From: Pseudomonas sp. 10S4
GTDB lineage: Bacteria > Pseudomonadota > Gammaproteobacteria > Pseudomonadales > Pseudomonadaceae
Length of the DNA stretch: 64,000 nt
Direction of reading: 5' to 3'
Assembly (NCBI RefSeq): GCF_034344865.1
Contig: NZ_CP133774.1
Span: 5,270,001 to 5,334,000, forward strand
In this document: positions 20,576 through 37,712 of the stretch, one piece after another
How the letters are laid out: the number at the start of each line of letters is the position of its first letter
Numbering within the stretch: position 1 is the first letter of the stretch
Translations under genes and position numbers: made by a program
The notes under the pieces: model-generated
What the model was told of the DNA's origin: nothing
Seen by the model: the letters and a program-made list of their open reading frames with translations, nothing else
Database searches by the model: none

Positions 20576-21022
20576 CGATAACTCCCTGCTTTTATTGTTC
20601 TTTATAGAGAAGCTCGCGCGCGAGCGATGCTGGATCGTATCAGTGCAAATTTGTGATGTACAACCGGCATACGTGCAGGTCCCGTCTGCATTTTTGCAAT
20701 GCCGGTGATGAATGTGCGCGCCAATACGCCCGCCGGTGACCTTCGCGACCGAATCGGCTGTGTGAACAGCTCAAACAGCGCAAGCGGGGTGTCTGCGCCG
20801 GCCCTTACGACACCAGCAGCCAATCGTCTGTTGGCATTCTGGCTGCGGGTTTGAAGCCGTCTGTGCCGAGGGTTTCAGGCCGGGTGCCGGCTGCGGGGCA
20901 CCCTGTGCAAAACAATAAGAACGCTGTTGCGGTGCGAGCCGCATCGACTCTCTGTTCCTGCCCATAAAGGTAGCCGGGTTCGCCAGGCTGCGATAACTCC
21001 AAACAAATCGGGACTCAAGAAG
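20576..21022. other. Divergent intergenic region with stem-loops
   Basis: No gene is visible in these 447 bases. Near 20663-20706 there is a nested stem-loop: ACCGGCAT pairs with ATGCCGGT around an inner TGCAG / CTGCA stem. At 20882-20903 GGGTGCC pairs with GGCACCC around eight bases, without a T-run. The region must carry promoters for the minus-strand valine genes and the plus-strand transporter operon; I could not pick convincing -35/-10 boxes. Confidence 0.5.
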
Positions 21023-21802: not shown

Positions 21803-21878
21803 TCCTCGCGCCCCGAGCGCTGTGCCGCGGTAACCGGCACAGCGTTTCAACGTGGGCGCCTCAAGACAGGTGACTGGC

Positions 21879-22604
21879 GTGAATTCCTTCCTGAATCTGA
21901 TCGGGCTCGATGTTTCGGCCCTGCAAGGCTATGGCCCATTGTTGCTGCACGGCACCTGGGTCACCCTGAAATTATCGGCGCTGTCGCTGTTGGTGAGCAT
22001 GGCGCTGGGCCTGCTCGGCGCGGCGGCCAAGCTGTCGCCGCTCAAGCTGTTGAACCTGCCGGCGACGTTCTACACGACGCTGATCCGTGGCGTGCCTGAC
22101 CTGGTACTGATGCTGTTGATTTTCTACAGCCTGCAAGGCTGGCTGAGCAGCCTGACCGAAGCGATGGGCTGGCCGTACATGGAAATCGACCCGTTCGTGG
22201 CCGGGATCGTCACCCTCGGTTTTATCTACGGCGCGTATTTTACCGAGACCTTTCGCGGCGCAATCCTCAGCGTGCCTCGTGGCCAGCAGGAGGCTGCGGC
22301 GTGTTTCGGTTTGAACCGCTGGCAGCGTTTCCGCTTTGTGGTGTTCCCGCAAATGATGCGGTTCGCCTTGCCGAGCCTGGGCAACAACTGGCTGGTACTG
22401 CTCAAAGCCACCGCGCTGGTGTCTATCATCGGTTTGTCGGACCTGGTCAAAGTCGCCCAAGAGGCGGGCAAGAGCACCTTCAACATGCTCGATTTCCTGC
22501 TGCTGGCGGCGGCGCTGTACTTGCTGATCACCAGCGCCTCGAACTATGTCCTGCGGGTGCTGGAGCGCCGCTATAACCAAGGCGTGCGGGGGATGGCGCG
22601 ATGA
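21879..22604 (+). CDS. ABC transporter permease (HisQ type)
   Basis: A 241-residue inner-membrane permease of the polar amino acid family (HisQ/ArtQ). Five hydrophobic segments are seen, with the EAA-type cytoplasmic loop EAAACFGLNRWQRFRFVVFP (near residues 148-167) that docks the ATPase. I choose the GTG at 21879, since AGGTGA lies five bases ahead; a longer frame begins at 21852. Its end overlaps the next permease start in an ATGA, a sign of translational coupling. Confidence 0.9.
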   Translation: MNSFLNLIGLDVSALQGYGPLLLHGTWVTLKLSALSLLVSMALGLLGAAAKLSPLKLLNLPATFYTTLIRGVPDLVLMLLIFYSLQGWLSSLTEAMGWPYMEIDPFVAGIVTLGFIYGAYFTETFRGAILSVPRGQQEAAACFGLNRWQRFRFVVFPQMMRFALPSLGNNWLVLLKATALVSIIGLSDLVKVAQEAGKSTFNMLDFLLLAAALYLLITSASNYVLRVLERRYNQGVRGMAR

Positions 22605-23311
22605 TCGAATTGATTGCCGAATACTGGAAACCCTTCCTGTTCAGCGATGGCTACAGCCTGACCGGGTTGGCCATGACCTTGTGGTTGCTGGTGGCGAGCA
22701 TCGTGATGGGGTTCTTCCTGTCGTTGCCGCTGGCGATTCTGCGCACCTCGCGCTGGGGCCTGTTGCGCTGGCCGGTTCAACTGTTCACTTACGTGTTTCG
22801 CGGCACGCCGCTGTATATCCAGTTGCTGATTTGCTACAGCGGGATCTACGGCATCGCGGTGGTGCGTTCGCAACCGTTGCTCGAAGCGTTTTTCCGCGAC
22901 GCGATGAATTGCACTTTGCTGGCGTTCACCCTCAACACCTGCGCCTACACCGTGGAGATTTTCGCCGGGGCGATCCGCAGCATTCCCTACGGTGAAATCG
23001 AGGCCGCCCACGCCTATGGCTTGAGTGGCTGGCGCTTGTATCTGCGGCTGATCCTGCCCTCGGCGTTGCGTCGGGCGCTGCCGTATTACAGCAACGAAGT
23101 GATCCTGATGTTGCACGCTACGTCGGTGGCGTTCACCGCGACCATCCCGGACATCCTCAAAATCGCTCGGGATGCAAATGCCGCGACCTTCATGACCTTT
23201 CAGGCATTCGGCATCGCCGGGTTGCTGTACCTCGCGATGTCGTTCGGCCTGGTCGGGGCGTTTCGCCTGGCGGAAAAGCGCTGGCTGAACTTCCTCGGTC
23301 CCGCTCACTAA
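22601..23311 (+). CDS. ABC transporter permease (HisM type)
   Basis: A 236-residue permease forming the heterodimeric channel with the HisQ-type partner. The coupling loop EIEAAHAYGLSGWRLYLRLI is intact, and the early FRGTPLYIQLLICYSG block is typical of HisM/ArtM proteins. Its ATG lies within the last codons of the upstream permease. About five transmembrane helices are apparent. Length is normal for the family. Confidence 0.91.
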   Translation: MIELIAEYWKPFLFSDGYSLTGLAMTLWLLVASIVMGFFLSLPLAILRTSRWGLLRWPVQLFTYVFRGTPLYIQLLICYSGIYGIAVVRSQPLLEAFFRDAMNCTLLAFTLNTCAYTVEIFAGAIRSIPYGEIEAAHAYGLSGWRLYLRLILPSALRRALPYYSNEVILMLHATSVAFTATIPDILKIARDANAATFMTFQAFGIAGLLYLAMSFGLVGAFRLAEKRWLNFLGPAH

Positions 23312-23363
23312 TTTATTTGTCCAGAGCTGCGCCGTAACAGGCGCGGTGGCAGGAGAGGTTTGC

Positions 23364-24125
23364 ATGAACAAATTGACGGTCGAAAACCTGTTTAAACGCT
23401 TCGGTGACAATGAAGTGCTCAAGGGCGTCTCGTTGAAGGCCAAGGCAGGGGACGTGGTGAGCATGATCGGCGCCAGCGGTTCGGGCAAAAGCACCATGCT
23501 GCGCTGCATCAACTTTCTGGAGCGGGCGGACGAAGGCGCCATCGAACTCGACGGCGAACGCATCGTTACTCGCCCCGGCATCGGTGGCATGCGCGTCGCC
23601 AATCCGGCACAGTTGCAGCGCTTGCGCACGCGTCTGGCCATGGTGTTCCAGCATTTCAATTTGTGGAGCCACCTGACCGTGCTGGAGAACATCATCCTGG
23701 CGCCGTGCCGGGTGCTCGGGATCAGCCGCAAAGCCGCCGAAGAAAGTGCCCGGGCCTATCTGGACAAGGTTGGCTTGCCGCAACGAGTCGCCGATCAATA
23801 CCCGGCGTTTCTCTCCGGCGGCCAGCAGCAACGGGTGGCGATTGCCCGCGCGCTGGCGGTGGAACCGGAGATTCTATTGTTCGACGAGCCGACCTCGGCA
23901 CTCGACCCGGAACTGGTGGGCGAAGTGCTCAAGGTGATTCAGGCGCTGGCCGAAGAAGGCCGGACGATGTTGATGGTGACCCACGAAATGGGCTTTGCCC
24001 GGCAGGTGTCCACCCAAGTGTTGTTCTTGCACCAGGGACGGGTTGAAGAGCAGGGTGATGCGACTATCCTCGATCAACCCAGCAGCGAACGTTTACAGCA
24101 ATTTTTATCAGGCCGTTTGAAGTGA
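23364..24125 (+). CDS. ABC transporter ATP-binding protein (HisP type)
   Basis: A 253-residue ATPase of the polar amino acid importer. Walker A is GASGSGKS, the Q-loop follows in VFQHFNLWSHLTVLEN, the ABC signature is LSGGQQQR, Walker B is [14 protein letters not shown] and the switch His is in VTHEMGFAR. The start ATG at 23364 has AGGAGAGG ahead; the open frame extends six codons further without support. Last of the four transport genes, nine bases before the Lrp-type regulator. Confidence 0.92.
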   Translation: MNKLTVENLFKRFGDNEVLKGVSLKAKAGDVVSMIGASGSGKSTMLRCINFLERADEGAIELDGERIVTRPGIGGMRVANPAQLQRLRTRLAMVFQHFNLWSHLTVLENIILAPCRVLGISRKAAEESARAYLDKVGLPQRVADQYPAFLSGGQQQRVAIARALAVEPEILLFDEPTSALDPELVGEVLKVIQALAEEGRTMLMVTHEMGFARQVSTQVLFLHQGRVEEQGDATILDQPSSERLQQFLSGRLK

Positions 24126-24134
24126 GAGACGTAC

Positions 24135-24614
24135 ATGGCGGATATCCGCGATCTGTCGATCGTGCTTGATCGTATCGATCAAGCCATTATCGAAGTGCTG
24201 CGCCACGAAGGGCGCATCACCTATCAAAAGCTTTCCGAGCGCGTGCACCTGACCCCCAGGCCTTGCCTGGAACGGGTGCGCAAACTTGAACAGCTCGGGG
24301 TTATTCGCGGGTACGGGGCGATTCTCGACGAAAAGAAGCTGACACCGGGGCTGTCGCTGCTGGTGTTGGTGGCGTTGTCGAACCAGAGCGGGCGGGCAGC
24401 GCAAAAGGCTTTTGAAGCCAAGGTTCGTGCGTGTCCGCAAGTGCTGGAGTGTCGGTTGATCAGCGGCGCGTTTGATTACAGCCTGCGCATGCGCTGCCGG
24501 GACATGGAGCATTACCGGGTGCTGACCGAGGTCTGGTTTGATGATCCGGATCTGCACATCGACAAGTTGGTGAGCCATCCGGAATTGGCGATGGTCAAGA
24601 CCACGATGGAGTAA
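24135..24614 (+). CDS. Lrp/AsnC family transcriptional regulator
   Basis: A 159-residue regulator with an N-terminal winged helix (LDRIDQAIIEVLRHEGRITYQ then VHLTPRPCLERVRKLEQLGVIRGY, residues about 11-57) and a C-terminal RAM ligand-binding domain (SLLVLVALSNQ, VLECRLISGAFDYSLRM). These regulators sense an amino acid. It lies nine bases after the ATPase and before ctlX, so it probably controls this uptake-and-catabolism set in response to arginine, citrulline or ornithine. Confidence 0.9.
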   Translation: MADIRDLSIVLDRIDQAIIEVLRHEGRITYQKLSERVHLTPRPCLERVRKLEQLGVIRGYGAILDEKKLTPGLSLLVLVALSNQSGRAAQKAFEAKVRACPQVLECRLISGAFDYSLRMRCRDMEHYRVLTEVWFDDPDLHIDKLVSHPELAMVKTTME

Positions 24615-24634
24615 GCACCAAACGACACACAACC

Positions 24635-24724
24635 TGTGGGAGCGGGCTTGCTCGCGAAGGCGTCATGTCAGTCAACATTGATGTTGGATGACACACCGCT
24701 TTCGCGAGCAAGCCCGCTCCCACA
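24635..24724. repeat. REP-type inverted repeat (GCGGGCTTGCTCGCGAA class)
   Basis: Arms TGTGGGAGCGGGCTTGCTCG and complement with an inner TGTCAGTCAACAT...ATGTTGGATGACA palindrome. It divides the regulator from ctlX. Between it and the ctlX ATG (24725-24900) there is no gene; a promoter is presumed. Confidence 0.85.
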
Positions 24725-24900
24725 TTGGTTTGGTGGGGTTCCGGATACCCGTATTTTCAGGATTCCCGACCCTCGCCGAATCGGCTGCCCCATCCAAAAT
24801 CTTCAGCCGTTTCCATCACCCGCAACCCCCTTATCAACCGGGTTTTCCCGCCTCCGAAACAGACAATGAGCCTCTCTCAACCCTCATTGAATCTGTGCCC

Positions 24901-25839
24901 ATGCAAACCACCAATACCGTTTTGATGATTCGCCCGACACGTTTCTCCTTCAATCAGGACACGGCGGCGAACAACCGTTTCCAGCGCCCGGCGGCAGTGG
25001 CCGAAGACGTCCAGCTCAAGGCCCTGCAAGAATTCGATGGCTATGTCGCCGCACTGCGCGGGCACGGCGTTGAAGTGTTGGTGCACAACGACGCCGAAGC
25101 GCCGCACACCCCGGATTCGATCTTCCCCAACAATTGGTGGAGCAGCCACCCCGACGGCACGCTGGTGCTGTACCCGATGCAGGGCCACAACCGGCGGCTG
25201 GAGCGGGACAAAGGTGTGCTCGACTGGTTGCGGGATGAGTACCGGGTGGAACAGCTCCTCGACTTGTCCAGCCTTGAACAGCAGGAAGTGTTCCTCGAAG
25301 GCACCGGCAGCATGGTGCTGGATCGTCAGCAACGGATTTGCTACGCCGGTTACTCCACCCGCACCCACGCCAAAGCGTTGGATCAGGTAGTCAGTCATCT
25401 GGGTTACGAGCTGTGCGCGTTCAACGCGATGGACCGTCAGGGCGTCGCGATTTACCACACCAACGTGATGATGAGCGTCGGCACACGCCTGGCCATCGCC
25501 TGCCTGGCGTCGGTCACCAATCCCGGCGAACGCCTGGCCCTGCGTAAACGTCTGGAAGACAGCGGCAAGCAAGTCATCGCTCTCGATTGGGCGCAGCTGG
25601 AATCCTTCGCCGGCAACATGCTGGAAGTCCACAACGCGGCGGGCGAGCCGGTGCTGGTGATGTCGCGCACCGCCTGGCAGTCGCTGGATAGCGCTCAACA
25701 GCGTTTGATCGAAACCCACACCACGCCGCTACCGGTAAACATCGACACCATCGAACGCATCGGTGGCGGCAGTGCGCGCTGCATGTTGGCCGAGGTTTTC
25801 CTGCCCAAACAACGAGCACTCAAGGAGCACCAGCGATGA
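24901..25839 (+). CDS. ctlX: Citrulline utilization hydrolase CtlX
   Basis: A 312-residue guanidino/ureido-group hydrolase of the amidinotransferase (pentein) superfamily, related to dimethylargininase and arginine deiminase. CtlX hydrolyses citrulline to ornithine with release of carbon dioxide and ammonia. The early block MIRPTRFSFN, the catalytic acid region IFPNNWWSSHPDG, the EGTGSMVLD block, and the His/Cys end region GGGSARCMLAEVFLP are present, with the nucleophilic Cys in the last. The ATG at 24901 is preferred because homologous sequence begins there, although no clear ribosome site stands before it. It overlaps the next gene by ATGA. Confidence 0.88.
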   Translation: MQTTNTVLMIRPTRFSFNQDTAANNRFQRPAAVAEDVQLKALQEFDGYVAALRGHGVEVLVHNDAEAPHTPDSIFPNNWWSSHPDGTLVLYPMQGHNRRLERDKGVLDWLRDEYRVEQLLDLSSLEQQEVFLEGTGSMVLDRQQRICYAGYSTRTHAKALDQVVSHLGYELCAFNAMDRQGVAIYHTNVMMSVGTRLAIACLASVTNPGERLALRKRLEDSGKQVIALDWAQLESFAGNMLEVHNAAGEPVLVMSRTAWQSLDSAQQRLIETHTTPLPVNIDTIERIGGGSARCMLAEVFLPKQRALKEHQR

Positions 25840-26869
25840 TCGTCCGTCCCGCCACACCTAACGATTTACCGGAACTCCTGGCGCTGGCCCATAGCGCCGG
25901 CACTGGTTTGACCACGTTGCCCGCCGACGCCGCACGCTTGCGCCAACGCCTGGAATGGGCGGCGAAAACCTTTGCCGGCGACGCTGAGCGCGCCGATGCC
26001 GATTACCTGTTTGTGCTGGAAAACGATGCGCACGAAGCGATCGGCATCTGCGCCCTGGCCGGTGCCGTCGGGCTGCGCGAGCCTTGGTACAACTATCGTC
26101 TGGGGTTGTTTGTGGCGGCCTCGAAAAACTCGGGATCAATCAGCAGATGCCGACGCTGTTCCTGGGCAACGACATGACCGGCCATTCGGAACTGTGTTCG
26201 CTGTTCCTGCACGCCGATCATCGCAGCGGACTCAATGGCCGTTTGCTGTCCAAGGCGCGGTTTCTGTTTCTGGCGGAGTTTCGTGAGAAGTTTGGCGACA
26301 AGGTCATCGCCGAGATGCGCGGTTACTCGGACGACGAGGGCGTTTCACCGTTCTGGGAAGGCTTGGGGCGGCACTTTTTCAAGATGGATTTTGCCGACGC
26401 CGACTACCTGACCGGGCTGGGTAACAAGACCTTTATCGCTGAGCTGATGCCCAAGTTCCCGTTGCCGACCTGTCTGCTGCCGGAAGAGGCGCGCTCGGTG
26501 ATTGGTCGGGTGCATCCGAACACCGAACCGGCGCTGGGCATGCTCAAGGCCGAAGGGTTTGAGCATCGGGACTACATCGACATCTTTGACGGCGGGCCGT
26601 TGATTGAATGCGCCACCGGGGATATTCGGGCGGTGCGCGATAGCCAGGTGCTGCAACTGAGCATCGGCACGCCGGGGGAGCAAGCGGCGACTTATTTGAT
26701 TCACAATCGCCAGTTTGCTGACTGCCGGATTACTGCGGCTGCGGCGCGGGTGGCGGCAGGGACGTTGATTGTGGATGCGCAGACGGCTAAGGCGCTGGGG
26801 TTGGGTGTGGGAAGTTCGGTGCGGGCGGTGAGTCTGGCGGTGCCGGTGCAGCAACAATCGGCAGCCTGA
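25836..26869 (+). pseudogene. astA: Arginine N-succinyltransferase, frameshifted as sequenced
   Basis: An AstA-family acyltransferase (GNAT-like fold) that moves succinyl from succinyl-CoA to the alpha-amino group of arginine or ornithine. The first frame covers MIVRPATPNDLPELLALA to FVAASK; the second continues with LGINQQMPTLFLGNDMTGHS, LCSLFLHADHR and GVSPFWEGLGRHFFKMDF. Adding one A to the run at 26124-26128 joins them and gives 344 residues, exactly the size of AstA. It overlaps ctlX by four bases, so the two products are made together. It is a lone copy, not part of an astCADBE operon, so ornithine made by CtlX may be its substrate. Confidence 0.87.
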
Positions 26870-27871: not shown

Positions 27872-29050
27872 TTATTTTTGCAGTATTGCCACCCGCCGGC
27901 CCGCCATGAAGCACAGGGTTCCGCCCATCGCGGTCAATGCGCAGAGGGCGTAGAACATTGTCGGCGCCGGGGTGTGCATTAACAGGTAGCCACAAATCAC
28001 CGGGCTCAAGGCACCGCCCAACGCCGCGAGGTTTTGCGCGCCGTAGTAACTGCCGCGCAGTTCTTCCGGGGCCAGGGTGTCGACGAAGAGGAATTCCGCC
28101 GGGTAAATGATCATTTCACCGAGGGTGAAAATGAACATCGCCACACACCAGCTCACCAGACCGTCGGCCAGGCTGAAACCGATCAAACCCAAAATGAACA
28201 AGCCGGTGCCGCCAGCAATCCAGTAGCGCAGTTGCTCACGTTTGAGGAAGCGGCCGATCTGGTATTGCAGCAGGATCACGCTGATAGCGTTGCAGGCGAG
28301 CAGGGCGGCCATGGTTTCCAGGGCGCGCTTGGAGTCATGGGTCACCAGCAGGTATTGCGACAGGTACAAGGTGAAACGGCCATGGACCACGGTGCTGAAC
28401 AGGCAGCCGCAGGTGAACATGATCAAGGTGCGGTCGTTTTTGAGGGTGGTCAGGGTCTTGAGAAAGCTCTGGGGCTGGCCGAGGGTAGTTGTCTGCGCCG
28501 GGTCTTTCGGAATCCCGCTCATCAAGAAGATACTGAAGAACGCGATGCCGCCAGCAATCAGGAACGGTGCAATCGGATACACCCCGGCGATCACCACACC
28601 GAGCATCGGCCCGGTGGCGTAGCCGATATTGGTCAAGGTGTAGCGCAGGGAAAACGCCTTGGCCCGTTGGCCCATGGGCAGGTTTTCGCTGAGGATCGCT
28701 TTTGAGCCGATCAGAAATAATGCGGAGGCGGTTTCGGTGATCACCAGGGTCGCGGTGGTCAGGTACAGGTTCTGGGCGAAGGTCAGCAGCACGAAGCCGA
28801 TGGCGCTGGAGAGCATGGCCAGGATCAACAGCCGACGCTTTTCCAGACGGTCGATAATGTAACCGCCGTAAAGGGCGAGCAGGGTGGCGATGAACACCGC
28901 GATGCCCAGCAGCAGACCAACGTCCTGTTGGTTGAGACCGAGTTTGTTGCTCAGAAATAGTGTGAGCAACGGGCTGGTGATGGCGCGGCTGACGACGATG
29001 GTCAGCGAGCAAATCATCAACCGGCGGATAACGAGCGAGTAAGTGGCCAC
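27872..29050 (-). CDS. MFS transporter
   Basis: A 392-residue major facilitator with twelve predicted helices. The loop 2-3 signature is YGGYIIDRLEKRRLL and the loop 5 region reads ETASALFLIGSKAILSEN and NIGYATGPMLG, like MdtH-type drug exporters. The start is a GTG at 29050 with AAGGAC about eleven bases ahead. It is 76 bases downstream of the MmgE/PrpD gene on the same strand, so it may be the last gene of that operon and export or import a related compound. Length is typical of the family. Confidence 0.88.
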   Translation of the reverse strand: MATYSLVIRRLMICSLTIVVSRAITSPLLTLFLSNKLGLNQQDVGLLLGIAVFIATLLALYGGYIIDRLEKRRLLILAMLSSAIGFVLLTFAQNLYLTTATLVITETASALFLIGSKAILSENLPMGQRAKAFSLRYTLTNIGYATGPMLGVVIAGVYPIAPFLIAGGIAFFSIFLMSGIPKDPAQTTTLGQPQSFLKTLTTLKNDRTLIMFTCGCLFSTVVHGRFTLYLSQYLLVTHDSKRALETMAALLACNAISVILLQYQIGRFLKREQLRYWIAGGTGLFILGLIGFSLADGLVSWCVAMFIFTLGEMIIYPAEFLFVDTLAPEELRGSYYGAQNLAALGGALSPVICGYLLMHTPAPTMFYALCALTAMGGTLCFMAGRRVAILQK

Positions 29051-29126
29051 GGTGGTGCAAATGTCCTTATTCAGATGTTAACGAGGTGTCGCCGCCAATC
29101 GCGAGCAGGTTCAAGCAACGCCTTTC

Positions 29127-30464
29127 TCATGTCAGCCACCGATCAAGCAGGCAAACCGATTCCAACTCTTCAACCCGCCACAACTGCTCAAGCAATTCTT
29201 CAGCCTGGTGCCGCGACATCACTCGCTCAGCCAGACTGAAAAACTTCTCCTCCAGCGCCCCATCACTCAACGGATTCCCCGGCGCCCCCAACGGCACCTC
29301 AACACACAGGCTCGCCTGCCGACCGTCCACGGTCCGCACGCTCACGACGGGCTCGCCATCCTCTGACAGTTGCGAGTCCACTTCAAGCCGGATACGCGAC
29401 ATCCAGTGCGCCATTCGTGGGTCGCTGCGTTGAGCCTCGTCATACGCTTCCAACCGGCAATGCCCCAGGACCAGCCGCGCCGCAAGCGCATACCGCAAAC
29501 TCATCTGCGCTGCCGCCAGACTGGCGACTTCCTGCCCGCCGCACATGTCCTGCAAAAACCCGCACAGCGACACCTGAATGTCTTCGACTTGATCAGCGCT
29601 GACCTGCAACTGCGCCAGCAACAGCCCCAGCGCATCAATCGCCGAGTGCGTCCCGCGGCACGCCGCGTAAGGCTTGATCGAGCAGCGGGCGAGTTTCCAT
29701 ACCCGGCCCAAGTCAGCGTCCAGCGCCTCAGGCACGGCGGTATTACCCGCTAGCGTCTTGAGAAATCCACCCCAGACGTCTTCAAACAACTTCGTCGGCC
29801 CGGTGATGCCGCACTGGGCAAAGCGTGCGGCCAGCAAACCACCTTCGGCCGCTCGACCACTGTGGAGTTTTTTGCTTTGCGAGCCGTCATGAATGAACGC
29901 CCAAAGTCCGCCGCTGAAGCTGCCGGCGATACCAAGTGCTGACAAGGTTTGTGCCGCATCGAGGCCGAGAATCCGTGCACTCGCCGCCGCTGCACCGAAC
30001 ACGCCGCAGGTTGCTGTGGAGTGCCAGCCAGCGCCGTTATGCGCCGAGTAGCTGCCGCAGGCTTCCAGCACCCGACGGCCGATTTCATAGCCAATGACCA
30101 CGGCGGTGATGAACTCCCGGCCGCTGACGATTCTTTCCGACATCGACACTGCTGCCATGATTGCCGGCAGCACGACGGCGCCGGAATGATCGCAGCCACC
30201 GGTATCGTCCAGTTCCAGGGCATGGGCGGCGATGCCATTGAGCATCGCCGCCTGCGCAGCACCGACCCGCCAATCGGTGCCCCAGACCGGCGTGTTGCCG
30301 GTTTCACCTTCAAACACTGCCCGTGCCTGTTTCGCCACTTCACTGCCAGCCCCGGCCAGGGTCGCGCCGAAGGTATCGAGAATATGCCGCTTGGCTCGCT
30401 CCACCAGCGCCACCGGCAAATCCTCAAATCGCGTATCGACACAAAACTGCGCCAGGTGCTCCAT
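29127..30464 (-). CDS. MmgE/PrpD family protein
   Basis: A 445-residue MmgE/PrpD-fold protein. Family members include 2-methylcitrate dehydratase, cis-aconitate decarboxylase and iminodisuccinate epimerase. The conserved blocks LVERAKRHILDTFGATLAG, NGIAAHALELDDTGG, GYEIGRRVLEACG and FGAAAASARILGLD are present, with the active-site region HSGRAAEGGLLAARFA and KPYAACRGTHSAID. I prefer the ATG at 30464, where family homology begins. A further ATG at 30524, overlapping the upstream gene by ATGA, would add 20 residues that translate half of a palindromic repeat. The neighbours (C-N lyase, amino acid transporter) favour a role on a substituted dicarboxylate, but the reaction is unknown. Confidence 0.88.
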   Translation of the reverse strand: MEHLAQFCVDTRFEDLPVALVERAKRHILDTFGATLAGAGSEVAKQARAVFEGETGNTPVWGTDWRVGAAQAAMLNGIAAHALELDDTGGCDHSGAVVLPAIMAAVSMSERIVSGREFITAVVIGYEIGRRVLEACGSYSAHNGAGWHSTATCGVFGAAAASARILGLDAAQTLSALGIAGSFSGGLWAFIHDGSQSKKLHSGRAAEGGLLAARFAQCGITGPTKLFEDVWGGFLKTLAGNTAVPEALDADLGRVWKLARCSIKPYAACRGTHSAIDALGLLLAQLQVSADQVEDIQVSLCGFLQDMCGGQEVASLAAAQMSLRYALAARLVLGHCRLEAYDEAQRSDPRMAHWMSRIRLEVDSQLSEDGEPVVSVRTVDGRQASLCVEVPLGAPGNPLSDGALEEKFFSLAERVMSRHQAEELLEQLWRVEELESVCLLDRWLT

Positions 30465-30478
30465 TCGAAGCACCCCAC

Positions 30479-30512
30479 TGTAGGAGCTGCCGAAGGCTGC
30501 GATCTCTTGATC
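30479..30512. repeat. Half copy of the GGAGCTGCCG-GGCTGCGATC repeat
   Basis: TGTAGGAGCTGCCGAAGGCT through GATCTCTTGATC is one arm of the palindrome seen at 6490-6566 and 38244-38315, without its inverted partner. It lies at the 5' edge of the MmgE/PrpD gene, between its two candidate start codons. Confidence 0.75.
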
Positions 30513-30520
30513 TTGCTCGC

Positions 30521-31408
30521 TCATACCCCGTAATCCCGATAATGCCGCTCGTAAACAGCCGCCGGGTGATCTTCGGCCACAGCCGCCGCCGAATCCGCCC
30601 ACCACTTCGATACTTCGCCCGCCGTGGCGATCCAAACGTCGTTGTGCTGCTGAATCCCTTCCAGCAACTCGCGCAACACGCCGATGCGTCCTGGCGTTGC
30701 GATGATTTCCGGGTGCAGTCGCAGTACGTAACACAGGCCGAATCGGTGAAACCCGGCGAAGTCCATTTGCAGGTTGCCCAGGGTATGGCTGTAGGAGGCG
30801 ATTCGCGATTGCGCCGGTGGCACGGCCGGGCTGAGGTTGAAGGCGAAGTAAGGTTCGTCTTCCAGTTCGTAATGCAGCGGCAACTCGATCACCTCGGGCG
30901 CCGTAGGGTGAGAGAACGGCAAATCATCGCCTCGCCACGACGAAGACCAGCGGATACCTTGATCCCGCAACGCCTCGATAAACCCCGGCGCACCGTTGCC
31001 GGCCGGGATGCGAAACCCGGTCGGCCGTTGGCCGGTCAGCGTGGTCAAGGCTTCGCAGCCCTTGGCGATCTCGGCGCTTTGCTCGGCCAGGGAAAGATTG
31101 TCGTAGTTCTGATGGCGATACCCGGCACAGGCAATCTCATGTCCACCGGCCTGGATCGCCCGAATATGCTCGGGGTTTTCCTCGGCGACGATGCCGGGAA
31201 TGCACCAGCTACTGGTGACGCCGAGTTCTGCGAACAACCCGAGCAAACGGTCGACGCCGCGTTGGCTGCCGTACCGCCAGACGGACAGGGTCTTGTCACG
31301 CCCGGCGACCTCCGGAGCCTGGGTCAGGATGCCGTGGATGTCGTTGTAATCGACGGTCAATACGACGGCGCAGCGATAGCCGTCGGGCCAGGCTGTGGAA
31401 TCAACCAT
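30521..31408 (-). CDS. Polysaccharide deacetylase-fold protein with altered metal site
   Basis: A 295-residue NodB-type (carbohydrate esterase 4) fold protein of the HpPgdA / cyclic-imide-hydrolase branch. The first aspartate motif is LTVDYND (D20), and the C-terminal LHPEIIATPGR block with its His is kept. In the HxxxH metal motif, however, the first His is replaced: the paralog next door reads AYHGYKH, whereas here it reads ACAGYRH (A95, H99). The protein may therefore be inactive alone, or bind its metal differently. It overlaps the upstream paralog by eight bases and the MmgE/PrpD frame downstream by ATGA. No peptidoglycan-related gene is near, so a small-molecule amide substrate is more likely than a polysaccharide. 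Confidence 0.82.
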   Translation of the reverse strand: MVDSTAWPDGYRCAVVLTVDYNDIHGILTQAPEVAGRDKTLSVWRYGSQRGVDRLLGLFAELGVTSSWCIPGIVAEENPEHIRAIQAGGHEIACAGYRHQNYDNLSLAEQSAEIAKGCEALTTLTGQRPTGFRIPAGNGAPGFIEALRDQGIRWSSSWRGDDLPFSHPTAPEVIELPLHYELEDEPYFAFNLSPAVPPAQSRIASYSHTLGNLQMDFAGFHRFGLCYVLRLHPEIIATPGRIGVLRELLEGIQQHNDVWIATAGEVSKWWADSAAAVAEDHPAAVYERHYRDYGV

Positions 31409-32249
31409 GGTGATGCTCCTTCAGCCACCACTGGGCGACATCGCGGCAGGTGGCGAACCACACGTCATCGCGCTGGCGCATGTGGTCGAAGAGTTTTTCC
31501 AGCAACAGGATGCGTCCCGGTTTGCCGGTGATTTTGGGGTGGAACAGGGTGGTCAGGCACAGCCCTTCGTTCATGGCGCCGTCGTATTCGCGGCGCCAGT
31601 TGTCCAGGGTCAGCTCGTAGCTTGCGGTGCGGTCCAGCCCGGAAGGGAAGTCCGGCGCACGGGTGTAGGCGAGGGAGGCGTAGTCGTCCATTTCCCAACG
31701 GCCGGGGATTTCCACCAGCGGTGTGTCGAAGCCGGGAACATTGACGAGGTACGGGCGGTCATCGCCGCGCATGCTGCTGGAATAGGTCACGCCGGCCTCC
31801 ACCAGCATCGCCGGGGTTTCGGCGCGCCAGTCGCCGGACGGCGTGCGAAAACCTTCGGCGCGGATGTTCAGGTGCTTCCAGAACACCTCGCGGGATTTCT
31901 TCATCACGTCCTTTTGCTGATCCAGCGTCAGGGCGTAAAAGGATTCGTGTTTGTAGCCGTGGTACGCCACCTCATGCCCGCGCTCGACAATCGCCTGGCA
32001 CTGTTTCGGCCAGTTCTCCACGACCCAGGCCGGGACGAAGAACGTTGTCGGGATCTGGAACGCGTCGAGCAAATCGAGGATTCGCGGCAGGGCGCGGTAG
32101 GGCCCGTACCCGCCGAAGCCAAAGTACTCGGGCTTGTGCCAGATCGAGCCGTTAAGCATCGCATCGCCGGTGGGGCCATCGAGGTCGAAGGCCAGGGCGA
32201 GACAGGCTTTGTGCTGGTCGGGCCAGGTGGGTTGGGGTGAGGAGGACAT
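31401..32249 (-). CDS. Polysaccharide deacetylase-fold hydrolase (HpPgdA/imidase type)
   Basis: A 282-residue NodB-fold metal hydrolase. Motif 1 is AFDLDGPTGD (D22), the metal-binding HxxxH is YHGYKH (H97, H101), motif 3 is GFRTPSGDWR, and the end block is LFHPKITGKPGR. There is no signal peptide, so it acts in the cytoplasm, which argues against wall polysaccharide as substrate. Cyclic imide hydrolases of pseudomonads have this fold and size. It leads a tight group with a second paralog and the MmgE/PrpD gene (overlapping starts and stops), downstream of an amino acid ABC transporter. Confidence 0.85.
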   Translation of the reverse strand: MSSSPQPTWPDQHKACLALAFDLDGPTGDAMLNGSIWHKPEYFGFGGYGPYRALPRILDLLDAFQIPTTFFVPAWVVENWPKQCQAIVERGHEVAYHGYKHESFYALTLDQQKDVMKKSREVFWKHLNIRAEGFRTPSGDWRAETPAMLVEAGVTYSSSMRGDDRPYLVNVPGFDTPLVEIPGRWEMDDYASLAYTRAPDFPSGLDRTASYELTLDNWRREYDGAMNEGLCLTTLFHPKITGKPGRILLLEKLFDHMRQRDDVWFATCRDVAQWWLKEHHHG

Positions 32250-32284
32250 CTTTGCGCTCCAACAATTTATAAGTAAACGACGAA

Positions 32285-32382
32285 CCCTGTGGGAGCGAGG
32301 CTTGCCCGCGAAGGCGGTGTGTCAGTCAACGGCGATGTTGGATGTGACGGCCTCTTCGCGGGCAAGCCTCGCTCCTACAGGG
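32285..32382. repeat. REP-type inverted repeat (GCGAGGCTTGCCCGCG class)
   Basis: Outer arms CCCTGTGGGAGCGAGGCTTG and complement with an inner palindrome around TGTCAGTCAAC. It separates the solute-binding protein gene from the deacetylase-fold genes, and could mark an operon boundary or lower downstream expression. Confidence 0.85.
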
Positions 32383-32404
32383 CAAGCATCCATCCCTTGC
32401 AGGT

Positions 32405-33229
32405 TTATTTGCCGGCGTTGATGGTCACCGTTTTGATCGCACCCAGTTCCAGGTCCCATTTCTTCAGGATGGTCTGGTAGCTGCCGTCATCGATCATGCT
32501 CTGCAACGCCACTTTCACCGCTTCACTCAGCTCAGGCTTTTTCTTGCTCAAACCCATGCCGGAGAACTGCACGGAAATCGGTTGGCCTACGGTTTTGTAG
32601 GTGTCCTTTTCCTGAGTCTTCAGGTACGACAAGGTCTCGCTACCCTGCATCGCCGCATCGATCCGGCTCTGACGCAGTTGCGCACGGGCATCCGCCGAGC
32701 CCTCAGTGCCGACCACCACAATCGCCGGTTTGCCGGCTGCTTCACAGTGAGCCTTGCTGTATTCAGCAATCTCCGCCGGGAAGGTGGTGCGTCGGCTGGT
32801 GCCGACTTTCTTGCCACACAGGTCGGTGATCTCGTTGGTGTCCTTGTTTTTCTGCAAGGTGTAGAACTGCGGGCCGCTGGTGAAGTAGTCGACGAAGGTC
32901 ACGCTGGCCTGACGTTCGACAGTGTCGGTCATCCCCGACAGGACCATGTCGACGCGGTCAGTGGTCAGCGCGTTGATCATTTGCTCGAAGCCGGTTTCCT
33001 GCCATTTGATCTTCACGCCCAGGCGCTCGGCCAGGGCGTTGCCCAGGTCGTAGTCCAAACCGGTCAGGGTGTTGGTGGCCGGGTCTTTGAAATCCATCGG
33101 CGGATAGTTCGGCATGATCGCTACGACGATCTCGCCCTTGGCCTTGATGCTGGCCGGCAACTCGGCGGCAAACGTGACGCTGGAAGCCATCAGGCCGGCG
33201 AGTACTGCTGGAATAACGAAATTCTTCAT
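32405..33229 (-). CDS. ABC transporter substrate-binding protein (polar amino acid type)
   Basis: A 274-residue family 3 solute-binding protein. Residues 1-21 form a signal peptide (MKNFVIPAVLAGLMASSVTFA). Core blocks include IVVAIMPNYPPMDFKDPA, LTGLDYDLGNALAERLGV, DRVDMVLSGMTDTVERQASV and QLRQSRIDAAMQG. The start ATG at 33229 agrees with the signal peptide; the open frame runs 16 codons further. Its genes for permease, ATPase and a C-N lyase lie upstream on the same strand. The ligand is probably an acidic or polar amino-acid-like compound handled by the lyase and hydrolases. Confidence 0.9.
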   Translation of the reverse strand: MKNFVIPAVLAGLMASSVTFAAELPASIKAKGEIVVAIMPNYPPMDFKDPATNTLTGLDYDLGNALAERLGVKIKWQETGFEQMINALTTDRVDMVLSGMTDTVERQASVTFVDYFTSGPQFYTLQKNKDTNEITDLCGKKVGTSRRTTFPAEIAEYSKAHCEAAGKPAIVVVGTEGSADARAQLRQSRIDAAMQGSETLSYLKTQEKDTYKTVGQPISVQFSGMGLSKKKPELSEAVKVALQSMIDDGSYQTILKKWDLELGAIKTVTINAGK

Positions 33230-33282
33230 GGTCGTTCTCTTATGAGTGTTGTGAGGCGGCTCTTGTTTTCCAAGCACGGCAC

Positions 33283-34047
33283 CTAGGTTCGAACGGCAGA
33301 AATGAAGCTTTGGGTGCGCGGGTTTTGTGGGCTTATTAGTATTTCTTCGGGGCTTCCAGCCTCCACGATCTGCCCGCCGTCCATAAACACCATGCGGTTG
33401 GAAACCTCGCGAGCGAAGCCCAGTTCATGGGTGACGACGATCATGGTCATGCCGGTTTGCGCCAGATCGCGCATCACCGACAGCACCTCACCGACCAGTT
33501 CCGGGTCGAGTGCCGAAGTGGGTTCATCGAACAGCATCAGCTTGGGCCGCATCGCCAGGGCGCGGGCAATCGCCACCCGTTGCTGCTGGCCGCCAGAGAG
33601 TTCAATCGGGTAGCTGTTGCGTTTGTCGGCCAGGCCGACGCGGGCCAGTAATTCCAAAGCTTCTTCGTGCGCTTCTTTGGGCGAGCGCTTGAGCACCTGG
33701 CACGGGCCTTCGATGATGTTTTGCAGCACAGTCATGTGCGGGAACAGGTTGAAGCGCTGGAACACCATGCCGGTGGCCAGGCGTTGCCGGGCGATCTGCG
33801 ATTCGTTGAGCTCGTGCAGTTTGTTGCCGACCACGCGGTAACCCACCAGCTCGCCGTCGACCCAGAGGCCGCCCTTATCAATTTTCTCAAGCTGATTGAC
33901 GCAGCGCAGCAAGGTGCTTTTGCCCGAGCCGGACGGGCCGATGATGCACAGCACTTCGCCTTGCTCGACTTCGATGTTGATGTCCTTGAGCGCGTGGTAC
34001 TGGTCGTAATATTTGTTCAGGCTCACAGCCTTGACGATGCTTCTCAT
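33283..34047 (-). CDS. ABC transporter ATP-binding protein (polar amino acid type)
   Basis: A 254-residue GlnQ/HisP-like ATPase. Walker A is GPSGSGKS, the Q-loop region [16 protein letters not shown], the signature LSGGQQQR, Walker [15 protein letters not shown] and the switch His in VTHELGFAR. The ATG at 34047 has GAGGAA eight bases ahead. It lies between the permease and substrate-binding genes and completes one import system. Confidence 0.92.
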
Positions 34048-34057
34048 GTCGGATTCC

Positions 34058-34936
34058 TCAAGAACGCTTGCCGGCGCCGCGAGCGAAACGACGCTCCAGA
34101 CGGCTTTGACCAAAGGACAGAACGGTGACGGCGGCCAGGTACCAGATACCGGCGACGATCAGCAACTCCATGACCCGGGCGTTGGCGTAGTAGATGTTCT
34201 GGGCGTTGTAGAGCAGTTCCGAGTACTGGATGACGCTCGCCAGCGAGGTCATTTTCACCATGCCGATGAACTCGTTGCCGACTGGCGGAATGATGATCCG
34301 CATGGCTTGCGGCAAGATGATCCGGCGTAGCGCCTGCAAGCGCGGCATGCCGATCGACTTGGCGGCTTCGTACTGGCCGGTGTCCACCGACAACAGGCCG
34401 GCGCGCACCACTTCAGCGGTGTAGGCGCCCTGGTTGATGCTCAAGCCGAGCAGGGCGGCCACGAACGGCGTCATCAGGCTCACGGTGTCGAGTTCAAACA
34501 GGCCAGGGATTCCGATGGTAGGAAAAATCAGCGCCAGGTTGAACCACAACAGCAGTTGCAGGATCAGCGGCGTACCGCGGAACAGCCAGGTGTAGGTCAC
34601 CGCCACGTAGCGCAGGATCGGGTTGGCCGACATGCGCATAATCGCAGTAATCACCCCGAAGACGATGCCCAGCGCCATTGCCAACACTGCCATGACGATG
34701 GTGTTGAACAAACCCCACATAATCGCCTGCGAGGTGACGAACTGGCCGATGTAGGACCATTCGATCTTGCCTTCGGCAAAGGCGCGGACCAGGCCGAGAA
34801 TGGCGATGACGATCACGGTGGCGAAGAAAATCCGCCCGTAATAGCGCCGTGGCACATGGTGGTACTGGGTGATATCGAACTGGTTGTCCGCCAGTTTGCG
34901 CTCCGCCTGGAGTCGTTCTGCCTGAGTCTGGCTCAT
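34058..34936 (-). CDS. ABC transporter permease (polar amino acid type, single)
   Basis: A 292-residue permease, longer than the usual 220-240 because of a cytoplasmic N-terminal extension (residues 1-30, rich in charged residues) and an extra first helix. The channel blocks [20 protein letters not shown] and [20 protein letters not shown] (ATPase-docking loop) are clear. Only one permease gene is present, so a homodimer is expected. GGAGAAACATC precedes the ATG. It follows the C-N lyase gene across a short REP-like hairpin. Confidence 0.9.
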
Positions 34937-34978
34937 GATGTTTCTCCGTACACTGGTATTTCAGATCGGCACGATCAC

Positions 34979-35006
34979 TGTGGGAGCGAGCAAGCTCGCT
35001 CCCACA
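34979..35006. repeat. Compact REP-like hairpin inside an operon
   Basis: TGTGGGAGCGAG-CAAG-CTCGCTCCCACA is a perfect 12-base stem with a four-base loop. It looks like a REP pair of the GCGAGCTTGCTCGCGATGG class collapsed by deletion of the centre. It lies between the C-N lyase stop (35023) and the permease start (34936), where it would form a very stable RNA hairpin within the transcript. Confidence 0.75.
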
Positions 35007-35022
35007 GGTGCTTCGTCTTGGC

Positions 35023-36450
35023 TTAAAGACGAAAGCCCTGATAGCTCTCGGTCCACTGCTGCTGGGCGGCGAGGGCGGTTTTCAAGCGACCGATCTGCTC
35101 GCGCACCTGTTGCGGCGCGGTGCCGCCCCAGCCACTGCGTGCAGCGATGGCGGCTTCCAGCGTCAGGCTGTCGCGCACTTCCGGGGTCAGGCGTGGATCA
35201 ATCTCGGCCAGCAGCGCCGGGGAGGCTTCCCACAATTCGATGTCGTGTTTCTCACAGGCCTGGACCAGCGCGCCGGTGATTTCATGGGCTTCCTTGAACG
35301 GCACGCCGCGCATGGCCAGCCAGTCGGCGACTTCGGTAGCGAGGGTGAAGCCCAATGGCGCCTGGCGCCGCAGTTCTTCAACGTTGACCTTCATGGTCGC
35401 GACCATCCCCGCCATGGCCGGCAGTACCAGCAGCAGGGTGTCGACGCTGTCGAGCACACCGTTTTTGTCCTCCTGCAGGTCGCGGTTGTACGCGAGCGGG
35501 AGACCCTTGAGGGTCGTGAGCAGGCCGGTGAGGTTGCCGATCATGCGACCGGACTTGCCGCGGGCGAGTTCGGCGATGTCGGGGTTCTTCTTCTGCGGCA
35601 TGATCGAACTGCCCGTGGCGTAGGCATCGTCCAGTGCGACCCAGCGAAATTGCCGTGACGACCACAGGCAAAACTCTTCGGCGAGGCGGGAAATGTTGAT
35701 CCCGAGCATGCTGGCGATAAACAGGAATTCCGCGACGTGGTCACGACTGGCTACAGCGTCGATGGAGTTTTCGCACACGCCGCTGTAGCCCATTTCCTTC
35801 GCGGACTGCTGCGGCAGGCGAGCGATGGCGGAACCGGCCATGGCCGCCGCGCCGAGTGGCGACAGCGAGGTGCGCACGTCCCAGTCCACCAGGCGTTGTA
35901 CGTCACGCAGCATCGATTGGGCGTGAGCCAGCAAGTGGTGAGCGAAAACGATCGGTTGCGCCTGCTGCAAGTGGGTGAAACCCGGGCAGATGCTTTCGAT
36001 GTGTTGTTCTGCCTGATCCACCAGCGCTTGCTGCAAGGCCAACACTTCAACGGCCAGGGTGCGGACGTGATCACGCAGAAACAGGCGCAGGTCGTTGGCG
36101 GTCTGGTCGTTACGCGAGCGGCCAGCACGCAGCTTGCCGCCAAGGGCGCCGAGGCGTTCGGTCAGCAGGCGTTCGATGAAGGTGTGGACGTCTTCATCGT
36201 CCAGGGTCGGGGCGATGCTGCCGGCGCGGAAGTCAGCGCCGATCTGATCCAGAGCGCCAAGCATGGTCTGGGTTTCTTGCTCGCTCAACAGACCGGCGCG
36301 TTGCAGTTCCCCGGCATGCGCCTTGGAACCGGCCAGGTCGTATGGGGTGAGGCGAAAGTAGCGCTCAGGACAACGGGACAGGGCCGCCAGGGCTTCGGAC
36401 GGGCCGCTTTTGAAGCGAGCACCCCAGAGACGGTCGGTGGTTTGAGACAT
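35023..36450 (-). CDS. Argininosuccinate lyase family C-N lyase
   Basis: A 475-residue member of the fumarase/aspartase superfamily closest to argininosuccinate lyase. These enzymes split a C-N bond to release fumarate and an amine. The signature GSSIMPQKKNPD is at 280-291 with the catalytic serine, the substrate blocks are RSRNDQ (111-116) and GFTHLQQAQP (H160). The start (LWGARF) is the usual ArgH entry, but much of the remaining sequence is what one sees in paralogs of housekeeping ArgH. It is first in a catabolic-looking operon with a transporter, two amidohydrolase-like proteins and an MmgE/PrpD protein, not with arginine synthesis genes. EDDS lyase belongs to this same family, so an N-substituted aspartate is a plausible substrate. 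Confidence 0.85.
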   Translation of the reverse strand: MSQTTDRLWGARFKSGPSEALAALSRCPERYFRLTPYDLAGSKAHAGELQRAGLLSEQETQTMLGALDQIGADFRAGSIAPTLDDEDVHTFIERLLTERLGALGGKLRAGRSRNDQTANDLRLFLRDHVRTLAVEVLALQQALVDQAEQHIESICPGFTHLQQAQPIVFAHHLLAHAQSMLRDVQRLVDWDVRTSLSPLGAAAMAGSAIARLPQQSAKEMGYSGVCENSIDAVASRDHVAEFLFIASMLGINISRLAEEFCLWSSRQFRWVALDDAYATGSSIMPQKKNPDIAELARGKSGRMIGNLTGLLTTLKGLPLAYNRDLQEDKNGVLDSVDTLLLVLPAMAGMVATMKVNVEELRRQAPLGFTLATEVADWLAMRGVPFKEAHEITGALVQACEKHDIELWEASPALLAEIDPRLTPEVRDSLTLEAAIAARSGWGGTAPQQVREQIGRLKTALAAQQQWTESYQGFRL

Positions 36451-36746
36451 TGTTATTTTCCTCGTCGGTAAAGCGAACTGAATACGGTCTGTAAAGCCCT
36501 GAACACTCGCCGGAAATTATTCGGGCGTGGTTAGGCCAAAGCAGTTTTCAAGAGGGCAGTTTCATCGTTACGAGAGCTGATCGAAGTGTCAGCTTTTAAT
36601 GGTGCGGAATCAGTGAGTTGGCACTCAGGTACGGAATTTATTAGCGGTTGCCAAGCCTGGTTTTCTGTGTTCATTATTATTAGCCAGCGTTATTTTTGTT
36701 GTTGGACACAGAGTGTTGAATAGGGCGTCAGAGGTAAATAAGCATT

Positions 36747-37712
36747 ATGGAAACCCCACTTTCCAATTCCGGAAACCCGCCGCCAAAACCGCCTCATCGG
36801 GCACCGTTGGCGCTCAGTGGTCTGGACTTTAAATTGCTCAAAGTGTTTAAGGCCGTGGTCGAGGCCGGCGGCTTCAGCGCCGCCCAGAACGAGCTGAATG
36901 TGGGCCTGGCAGCCATCAGCAAACAGATCTCCGACCTTGAGATTCGCATCGGCATGCGCCTTTGCACCCGCGGTCGAGAGGGGTTTCACCTGACCGAAGA
37001 AGGGCGTCTGGTGTATCAGGCGTCAATTGATTTATTTGCCTCGGTCGATAACTTTCGTGATCGCCTTAGTTCTGCGCAGAATGAACTGATTGGCGACTTT
37101 GGTGTAGGGGTTATTGATAACACCATCTCCGATCCTAATTCGCCGTTAGTTGCAGCGCTTAGACGAATTAATGAGGAGTCGCCGAGAGTAAGGTTTCAAA
37201 TTCAAGCTTCGCAACTGGATGAAGTTGAACGTGGCGTAGTGGAGGGAAGACTAGTCGCGGGGATCGTGCCGGTTTATCAACGACGGGAGGAGTTCGATTA
37301 CTACGCGCTGTATGAAGAACGCTCCGAGGTTTACTGCGCGGTCGGGCATCCGTTGTTCTCAGTGCCAGAGGCGGAGATCGGCACCAATGTGCTCAAGGAC
37401 TACGAGTGCATCAACCACCGTTACGCGATACACCGCGACAAACTGAATTTCGCCCACTACGACAGCTTTTCAGCCTCGGCGACCCAGGTGGAAGCTGTAG
37501 CGCTGCTGGTCAAGACCGGCCGTTTTGTGGGCTTCTTGCCGCAACATTACGCTCTAAACCTGGTGGCCCAAGGACAGTTTCGGGCGGTCCGCCCGGACCT
37601 GATCAGCATCGTGACGCCGTTCAATCTGATCCTGCGGCACAACACTGTACGCAGCCCGCTGGTCAAGGCGTTTGCCCTGGCGCTGGGGGTCGATTTAAAG
37701 GTGCCGGCCTGA
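36747..37712 (+). CDS. LysR family transcriptional regulator
   Basis: A 321-residue LysR-type regulator. The winged helix covers about residues 27-85 (LKVFKAVVEAGGFSAAQNEL, GLAAISKQISDLEIRIG) and the effector domain follows from about 115 to the end (GDFGVGVIDNTISD, CAVGHPLFS, GFLPQHYALNLVAQG). A proline-rich 25-residue extension precedes the helix. AGAGG stands eleven bases before the ATG. It is divergent from the C-N lyase operon across 296 bases of comparatively AT-rich sequence, the classic LysR layout, so it very likely controls that operon. Confidence 0.9.
   Translation: METPLSNSGNPPPKPPHRAPLALSGLDFKLLKVFKAVVEAGGFSAAQNELNVGLAAISKQISDLEIRIGMRLCTRGREGFHLTEEGRLVYQASIDLFASVDNFRDRLSSAQNELIGDFGVGVIDNTISDPNSPLVAALRRINEESPRVRFQIQASQLDEVERGVVEGRLVAGIVPVYQRREEFDYYALYEERSEVYCAVGHPLFSVPEAEIGTNVLKDYECINHRYAIHRDKLNFAHYDSFSASATQVEAVALLVKTGRFVGFLPQHYALNLVAQGQFRAVRPDLISIVTPFNLILRHNTVRSPLVKAFALALGVDLKVPA

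Follow-up and report, generated by a model that had tools for sequence, protein, structure and literature searches.

A conserved operon of Pseudomonas sp. 10S4 that joins an ArgH-family lyase to an amino-acid-type importer may scavenge argininosuccinate-type compounds

A compact operon lies in a stretch of 64,000 nucleotides from Pseudomonas sp. 10S4 (contig NZ_CP133774.1, positions 5,270,001 to 5,334,000; this whole stretch is called the window below). Its genes encode an ArgH-family lyase, an importer, two NodB-fold proteins, an MmgE/PrpD protein and a transporter of the major facilitator superfamily (MFS). All of these are located on the reverse strand, and a LysR-type regulator gene diverges from them on the forward strand. 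The operon is real, conserved and, as far as the open-licence PubMed Central (PMC) literature goes, uncharacterised. No description of this gene set was found in that literature, in agreement with a first-pass annotation, made from the letters alone, that had considered the pathway possibly undescribed. The host genome comprises 7.27 Mb in a single contig.

The first gene of the operon (35023-36450) encodes a C-N lyase of 475 amino acids that belongs to the ArgH or argininosuccinate lyase (ASL) family, is referred to as type A in the following, and reaches 534 bits with TIGR00838 (cut-off 279.5). It is followed by the genes for an ATP-binding cassette (ABC) importer, i.e., a single amino-acid-type permease gene (34058-34936; PF00528, TIGR01726), an ATPase gene (33283-34113; PF00005) and a gene for a solute-binding protein with a cluster-specific QG.E motif (32405-33277; PF00497). 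The start of the ATPase open reading frame (ORF) is mechanical and the ORF overlaps that of the permease; the closest NCBIfam models for this protein are GlnQ and EhuA, and it stays under the cut-off of each. Then come NodB2, a NodB-fold hydrolase with an intact Asp/His/His metal site (31401-32249; PF01522), NodB1, a NodB-fold protein in which this site is eroded (30521-31408; PF01522), an epimerase-like MmgE/PrpD protein (29127-30524; PF03972 and PF19305), hereafter MmgE, and the MFS transporter (27872-29050; PF07690). The divergent LysR-type regulator gene occupies 36747-37712 (PF00126 and PF03466). The genes for NodB2 and NodB1 overlap by 8 bases and those for NodB1 and MmgE by 4 bases: the most likely MmgE start, at 30524, yields a protein of 465 amino acids and overlaps the NodB1 stop, and the longer mechanical ORF would specify 535 amino acids. 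Families were assigned with Pfam and NCBIfam models, and these agree with the gene list of the first-pass annotation; all named genes are ORFs without internal stops, and their translations were checked.

The same genes are found together in unrelated bacteria and form one conserved operon. A genome collection was scanned with a NodB2 alignment, and the best 80 of 259 relatives were kept (71 Pseudomonas, 9 Enterobacterales). In all of these best 80 loci, the order and orientation of the genes found are identical. The lyase, permease, ATPase, binding protein, NodB2 and NodB1 occur together in 74 of them, and the other six lack genes only towards the end of their stretch or contig. Lyase through MFS gene plus divergent LysR gene are present in 47 loci, and the same arrangement lacking MmgE in another 16; nine run from the lyase to MmgE and carry the LysR gene with no MFS gene inside the stretch, and eight end at a contig edge before the LysR gene, six of them also being without the lyase or more. 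Accordingly, the divergent LysR gene is seen in 72 of the 80 loci, and the remaining eight end before its position. One locus (L059, Pseudomonas sp. ERMR1:02) has LysR, lyase, permease and NodB1 each matching in two frames, which may reflect sequencing errors. Seven plasmid records (Burkholderia, Caballeronia, Paraburkholderia, Ensifer, Paracoccus, Rhizobium and Ochrobactrum) share NodB2-NodB1-MmgE and importer genes at about 39-73% identity, and proteins encoded by the cluster genes of bacteria further afield are roughly 32-80% identical. The expectation of the first-pass annotation that the set is kept together elsewhere was therefore borne out.

The cluster occurs in Pseudomonas, Enterobacterales and Burkholderiaceae and is rearranged in rhizobia and Paracoccaceae. 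Lyase, importer and MmgE are accompanied by one NodB protein encoded after MmgE in Sinorhizobium and Gemmobacter, and by a single NodB protein encoded before the LysR gene in Chelatococcus; this single protein is of another type, with the metal motif retained. In S. medicae the single NodB gene reads in two pieces. An MFS gene was seen with the cluster only in Pseudomonas copies, not in all of them, and not in the copies of genomes G115, G050 and G022. Since NodB2 turned up in just 1 of 369 genomes drawn at random from the class and in 7 of 397 from the phylum (host genome counted in each), and since copies are spread across bacteria, the operon is widely but thinly distributed. MmgE is closely followed by a diverged version of the cluster's binding-protein gene in four places (L040:12268-13062, L041:12242-13030, L140:9998-10789 and L142:5395-6198).

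Among solved proteins, the closest relative of the lyase is a true ArgH (507 bits), whereas ethylenediaminedisuccinate (EDDS) lyase (6g3d), a member of the same family to which the first-pass annotation had linked it, scores only 206 bits. In keeping with the scheme of that annotation, the cluster lyase is not the housekeeping enzyme: a separate ArgH is encoded in the same genome (G000:C1:1498343-1499722), is 44% identical to it and stands far apart in the tree. This tree comprised 53 lyases chosen from the fetched loci, and the program warned of long branches. Two clades of cluster lyases emerge in it: type A (100/99) unites 29 enzymes from full or reduced clusters and stands beside Mycobacterium tuberculosis ArgH, and type B (100/100) consists of four alphaproteobacterial enzymes placed among proteobacterial ArgH rows. 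The lyase of P. fluorescens FW300-N2E3, a strain that carries the cluster (L082), is of type A, and that of Rhizobium sp. 11515TR is of type B. The two separate clades suggest at least two recruitments of ArgH to this type of operon. T161, H162, S283, K289, N291, R115 and N116 (duck numbering, as for all lyase positions below), which we take to be the ArgH-type catalytic residues, do not vary among the 29 type-A and the four type-B lyases of the tree. The cluster lyase has in common with ArgH the catalytic residues and a family score far above the cut-off, but differs from it by its separate clade, by the replacement of D33 and Q328 in that clade (the copy of strain 10S4 itself has Q328, within an odd patch) and by being encoded together with an importer and hydrolases.

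The lyase of strain 10S4 contains an odd patch. It has GLPLAYNRDLQEDK at a place where the rest of the cluster lyases in the clade show SLPLSYNRDLSEDK or a similar sequence, and this patch of canonical ArgH residues spans 35440-35517 inside the gene. Around codons 312-327, DNA identity to three relatives falls to 0.73-0.78 in a 60-base window, while most other windows lie at 0.83-0.98; one other window reaches 0.75 against a single relative only (G100), and a low last value stems from an incomplete window. The drop in identity together with the canonical residues suggests recombination over a short tract, with an assembly error as another possibility. In a plasmid collection, the match listed first for the patch comes from an Arthrobacter record (83% over 114 bases). 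The genome's own housekeeping ArgH was considered as donor and ruled out by comparison.

NodB2 is nearest to the solved protein 3rxz and then to HP0310 and PuuE-type proteins, and the nearest solved relatives of NodB1 are likewise 3rxz, HP0310 and PuuE-type proteins. D24, H97 and H101 of NodB2, presumably the Asp/His/His metal ligands, are invariant in the aligned sequences. No export signal was seen by eye in either protein, and both fall short of the PuuE model TIGR03212 (89 and 85 bits versus a cut-off of 424.6). PuuE, which also has the NodB fold, acts on the small cyclic imide allantoin (PMC3084791, PMC10967932) and is described as not metal-dependent (PMC10967932, PMC3084791). The NodB pair shares the fold and the apparent lack of an export signal with PuuE and its relatives (3cl6, 3s6o, 3rxz), and opening of a small ring appears plausible. 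NodB1 is like PuuE in lacking the metal site, NodB2 differs from it by an intact one, and NodB1 could be either a PuuE-like enzyme or a structural partner of NodB2.

Iminodisuccinate (IDS) epimerase works with a C-N lyase partner, and IDS is reportedly degraded in Agrobacterium BY6. Profile comparison identified this epimerase (2hp0/2hp3) as the solved protein nearest to MmgE (197 bits; 123 bits by single sequence), followed by bacterial and animal IRG1/CAD with 162-184 bits. His99 and Tyr145 are the two bases proposed for IDS epimerase (PMC7347537). When the alignment is read by eye, the first base is retained as H113, which is invariant in the aligned MmgE set. MmgE shares with IDS epimerase the family, this histidine and the logic of an epimerase acting beside a C-N lyase; the system described here differs in having Asn at the place of the second base, an ArgH-type lyase and the additional NodB hydrolases. 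An Asp/Glu/hydantoin racemase was considered as a stand-in for MmgE; the Chelatococcus copy has a gene of this kind nearby, but MmgE is present there too.

In 24 aligned binding proteins of the cluster, Q211, G212 and E214 are invariant and R122 is kept. Their second pocket motif is Gly-x-Glu (G212, E214), and three of seven other family-3 binding proteins carry Asp at the Gly position. Such a motif would fit a ligand with a substituted nitrogen, but also other ligands. In a crude scan for a sigma-54 promoter upstream of the lyase gene, prompted by the S. meliloti expression changes described below, no site with fewer than three mismatches was found here or in 26 other upstream regions.

The genes of the operon are lost in a nested manner. 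We counted them in 194 relatives (lyase at E ≤ 1e-150, NodB2 at E ≤ 1e-90, cluster-type MmgE at ≥ 58% identity) and obtained 37 genomes with a type-A lyase, 27 with NodB2 and 19 with MmgE, plus one with MmgE in two fragments (G087). Nesting was strict in that all genomes with MmgE belong to those with NodB2, and all with NodB2 to those with the lyase. Seven of the ten genomes with the lyase but no NodB2 retain LysR, lyase, importer including the permease, and MFS gene; these reduced clusters without NodB and MmgE are all from Pseudomonas (L195, L199, L201, L202, L203, L206 and L207; G004 among the genomes). In the other three (G020, G068, G085), the stretch fetched contains no importer or NodB gene. 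At L200, L204 and L205, where the lyase has no importer nearby, the N-termini of neighbouring gene products resemble mmsA/mmsB by eye, and the cluster of G115 (L138) is likewise near an aldehyde dehydrogenase gene and a 3-hydroxyisobutyrate-dehydrogenase-type gene. The seven genomes that have NodB2 and lack MmgE all retain NodB1, the lyase and the importer as well.

MmgE has been lost repeatedly. In the 16 of 80 loci without it, 50-277 bases remain between NodB1 and the MFS gene; two loci (L074, L075) contain MmgE fragments, and in L095 the gene reads in two frames. On a joined NodB2+NodB1 protein tree built by a quick method, its loss (18 of 81 rows) takes 11 changes, at least five of them forced by well-supported branches. 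In addition, Caballeronia and G764 possess second modules of lyase and importer with NodB and MmgE not nearby (L193, L194). The nested loss and these modules suggest that importer and lyase form the core, to which the hydrolases and then MmgE were added as layers, MmgE apparently making the most dispensable conversion. Upstream of a related gene set on a Bosea plasmid (L135) lie a gene for an M20 hydrolase and a sequence that matches part of an ornithine cyclodeaminase (OCD).

Several copies of the cluster have neighbours related to arginine breakdown. In Prodigiosinella, a complete astCADBE set that shares the strand of the cluster begins 100 bases beyond the MmgE stop, and astC, astA, astD, astB and astE each exceed the cut-off of their own model. 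Arginase and OCD genes are situated upstream of the cluster on the Paracoccus plasmid, and agmatinase-family genes lie within about 3 kb of it in Gemmobacter, Erwinia, Pantoea and G879. The gene for the citrulline hydrolase CtlX is near 13 of the 60 Pseudomonas loci longer than 20 kb among L046-L115, in 12 cases with an arginine succinyltransferase gene. An arginine- or guanidino-catabolic marker with at least 38% identity was detected at 7 of 26 non-Pseudomonas loci and in none of 40 random 20-kb stretches drawn from related records (Fisher p = 0.0008). We regard this comparison as supporting, not decisive. In the window itself, 20927-26869 holds genes for an amino-acid ABC importer, an Lrp-type regulator, CtlX and arginine succinyltransferase; relative to the family model, the last ORF is short by about 96 residues at its start. 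Opine oxidase genes were also considered. Two genes for oxidoreductases dependent on flavin adenine dinucleotide lie upstream of the Burkholderia copy, but a porin gene and the LysR gene separate them from the operon, and the annotated neighbours of the G764 and G826 copies belong to other families.

A related arrangement exists in a model organism. A stretch of pSymB of Sinorhizobium meliloti 1021 (L176) has a lyase with 63% identity and, in unchanged order, the ABC genes and MmgE. It probably corresponds to argH2/SMb21094-SMb21097, an assignment made by inference because the fetched record is unannotated, and differs from the operon in strain 10S4 by a different single NodB-family gene. The S. 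meliloti MmgE orthologue (L176:9627-10930) reads in two frames in the record. In a tolC mutant, argH2 and SMb21095-97 were down 10- to 21-fold on microarrays and argH2 was down 4.5-fold by reverse transcription PCR (PMC2912261). The same study names the transporter as being of unknown function and attributes the reduced expression of genes for transport of nitrogen-rich compounds probably to lower NtrC expression (PMC2912261).

We propose, with a probability of about 0.4, that the operon serves to scavenge argininosuccinate-type compounds. A core of importer and lyase, two recruited ArgH lineages serving the same type of operon and the arginine-breakdown neighbours together make arginine the probable amine and an argininosuccinate-type compound the probable substrate. 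The ABC system would take up arginine, or a close relative of it, whose guanidino nitrogen carries an aspartate-derived dicarboxyethyl group, and the lyase would cleave this compound, in its open form, to fumarate plus arginine or its relative. NodB2 as the metal-dependent enzyme, with NodB1 as its partner or as a PuuE-like second enzyme, might convert a cyclic form (an imidazolone or lactam 'anhydride') into the open acid. MmgE would invert the stereocentre of the dicarboxyethyl group, such that material of the wrong configuration becomes acceptable to the lyase, and the LysR-type protein may sense the substrate. We infer each reaction, the ligand and the order of steps from the genes and their context.

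Two different argininosuccinate anhydrides exist, and the substrates perhaps include such cyclic compounds. Argininosuccinic acid loses water to form an anhydride with a five-membered ring, as stated in PMC6918381. The narrower version, in which the operon salvages spontaneously cyclised argininosuccinate, the NodB pair opening the anhydrides and MmgE rescuing a racemised stereocentre so that arginine and fumarate result, appears doubtful to us. The first-pass annotation had sketched import, ring opening, epimerisation and C-N cleavage to fumarate and an amine. This outline stays plausible; the systems it took as closest models do not fit, and the arginine neighbours, the double recruitment of ArgH, the nested loss, the loss of the NodB1 metal site and the replacements at D33 and Q328 did not figure in it.

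A number of observations weigh against our proposal. The strongest of them, as regards plain argininosuccinate as type-A substrate, is the loss of D33 and Q328. D33 is replaced by Y/F in 29/29 type-A lyases and Q328 by S/A/G/I in 28/29, the exception being the lyase of strain 10S4, whereas both residues are retained in all 24 others (17 housekeeping ArgH, 3 solved ArgH/delta-crystallin and 4 type-B proteins). Of the 134 lyase entries of all fetched loci, overlapping copies included, 132 are without Q328, and the two that have it are this strain's own locus. Positions 33 and 328 presumably line the arginine (amine) side of the ArgH substrate pocket, and with both replaced the amine may not be plain arginine. 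Type-B lyases, too, depart from ArgH, at positions 29, 290, 323 and 330. The metal site of NodB1 is lost, its His pair not being conserved among the aligned sequences. Tyr145 of IDS epimerase reads by eye as N163 in MmgE, an Asn invariant in the aligned set, and since the proposed second base is thereby replaced, epimerisation rests on analogy and not on membership; the links to IDS and EDDS drawn in the first-pass annotation are not supported, since only one of the two bases is kept and the lyase scores far lower against EDDS lyase than against ArgH. We know of no anhydride-opening enzyme, and searching the open-licence PMC literature for argininosuccinic acid, anhydride and hydrolase returned nothing.

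The genomic evidence has contrary points as well. The Bosea plasmid carries importer genes and MmgE with no lyase or NodB gene in the stretch fetched, which counts against strict nesting outside Pseudomonas, and the Paracoccus plasmid, where no lyase was detected at E ≤ 1e-60, is another counter-example there. CtlX is missing near 47 of the 60 Pseudomonas loci longer than 20 kb, and 19 of the 26 non-Pseudomonas loci have no arginine-catabolic neighbour by the markers used. Without the 38% identity cut, the marker comparison stands at 8/26 versus 6/40, and the cut was introduced within the very analysis that yielded these values. The markers themselves originate from the locus of strain 10S4 and from three non-Pseudomonas loci that were also among those tested. 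Leaving out those three gives 4/23, of which three share one Erwinia/Pantoea-like context and one is a fragment.

The main rival explanation assumes the same chemistry with another guanidino amine, such as 4-guanidinobutyrate, agmatine or a modified or N-acylated arginine. It would accommodate the loss of D33 and Q328 in type-A lyases, the ureohydrolases of the agmatinase family that Gemmobacter, Erwinia, Pantoea and G879 encode close to the cluster, and the Gly of the cluster binding proteins where three of seven other family-3 proteins have Asp. On the other hand, type-B lyases, in which D33 and Q328 are retained despite departures from ArgH at the four positions given above, belong to operons with the same NodB2/NodB1/MmgE set, and the arginase/OCD and astCADBE neighbours are arginine-specific. 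We consider this rival somewhat unlikely. A route for non-guanidino N-(dicarboxyethyl) amines, i.e., IDS, EDDS or aspartyl-type natural products, is improbable. IDS epimerase is indeed the nearest solved relative of MmgE and EDDS lyase does fall within the ArgH family, but the cluster lyase is far closer to ArgH (507 versus 206 bits), MmgE is without the Tyr proposed as second base, the neighbours are linked to arginine, and two ring hydrolases are not evidently needed for IDS.

The resemblance of NodB2 and NodB1 to 3rxz and PuuE-type proteins could alternatively point to a catabolic operon for cyclic imides or hydantoin-type compounds, in which the lyase is unrelated in action or only supplies arginine. 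This is very unlikely because NodB is dispensable: importer and lyase persist without it in seven relatives and in the two second modules. Least probable in our view is a spare lyase of arginine biosynthesis that came to lie beside a transporter by chance. The TIGR00838 match far above the cut-off would agree with that, as would G020, G068 and G085, which retain the lyase with no importer or NodB gene in the stretch fetched. Nevertheless, the housekeeping ArgH is also present, residues 33 and 328 are altered and the gene belongs to a tight, conserved operon with importer and LysR gene.

Scavenging of argininosuccinate-type compounds would provide a testable function for the argH2-type operon of model soil bacteria, namely the Pseudomonas fluorescens group and S. 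meliloti with its pSymB. The same holds for two subfamilies for which no assigned activity was found, the GGCDHSGAVV-type MmgE/PrpD proteins and the FDLDGPTGD-type NodB proteins. Such a function would also show how a biosynthetic lyase was recruited twice for catabolism. If salvage of cyclised argininosuccinate proved true, the NodB pair would be the first known enzymes that open argininosuccinate anhydrides.

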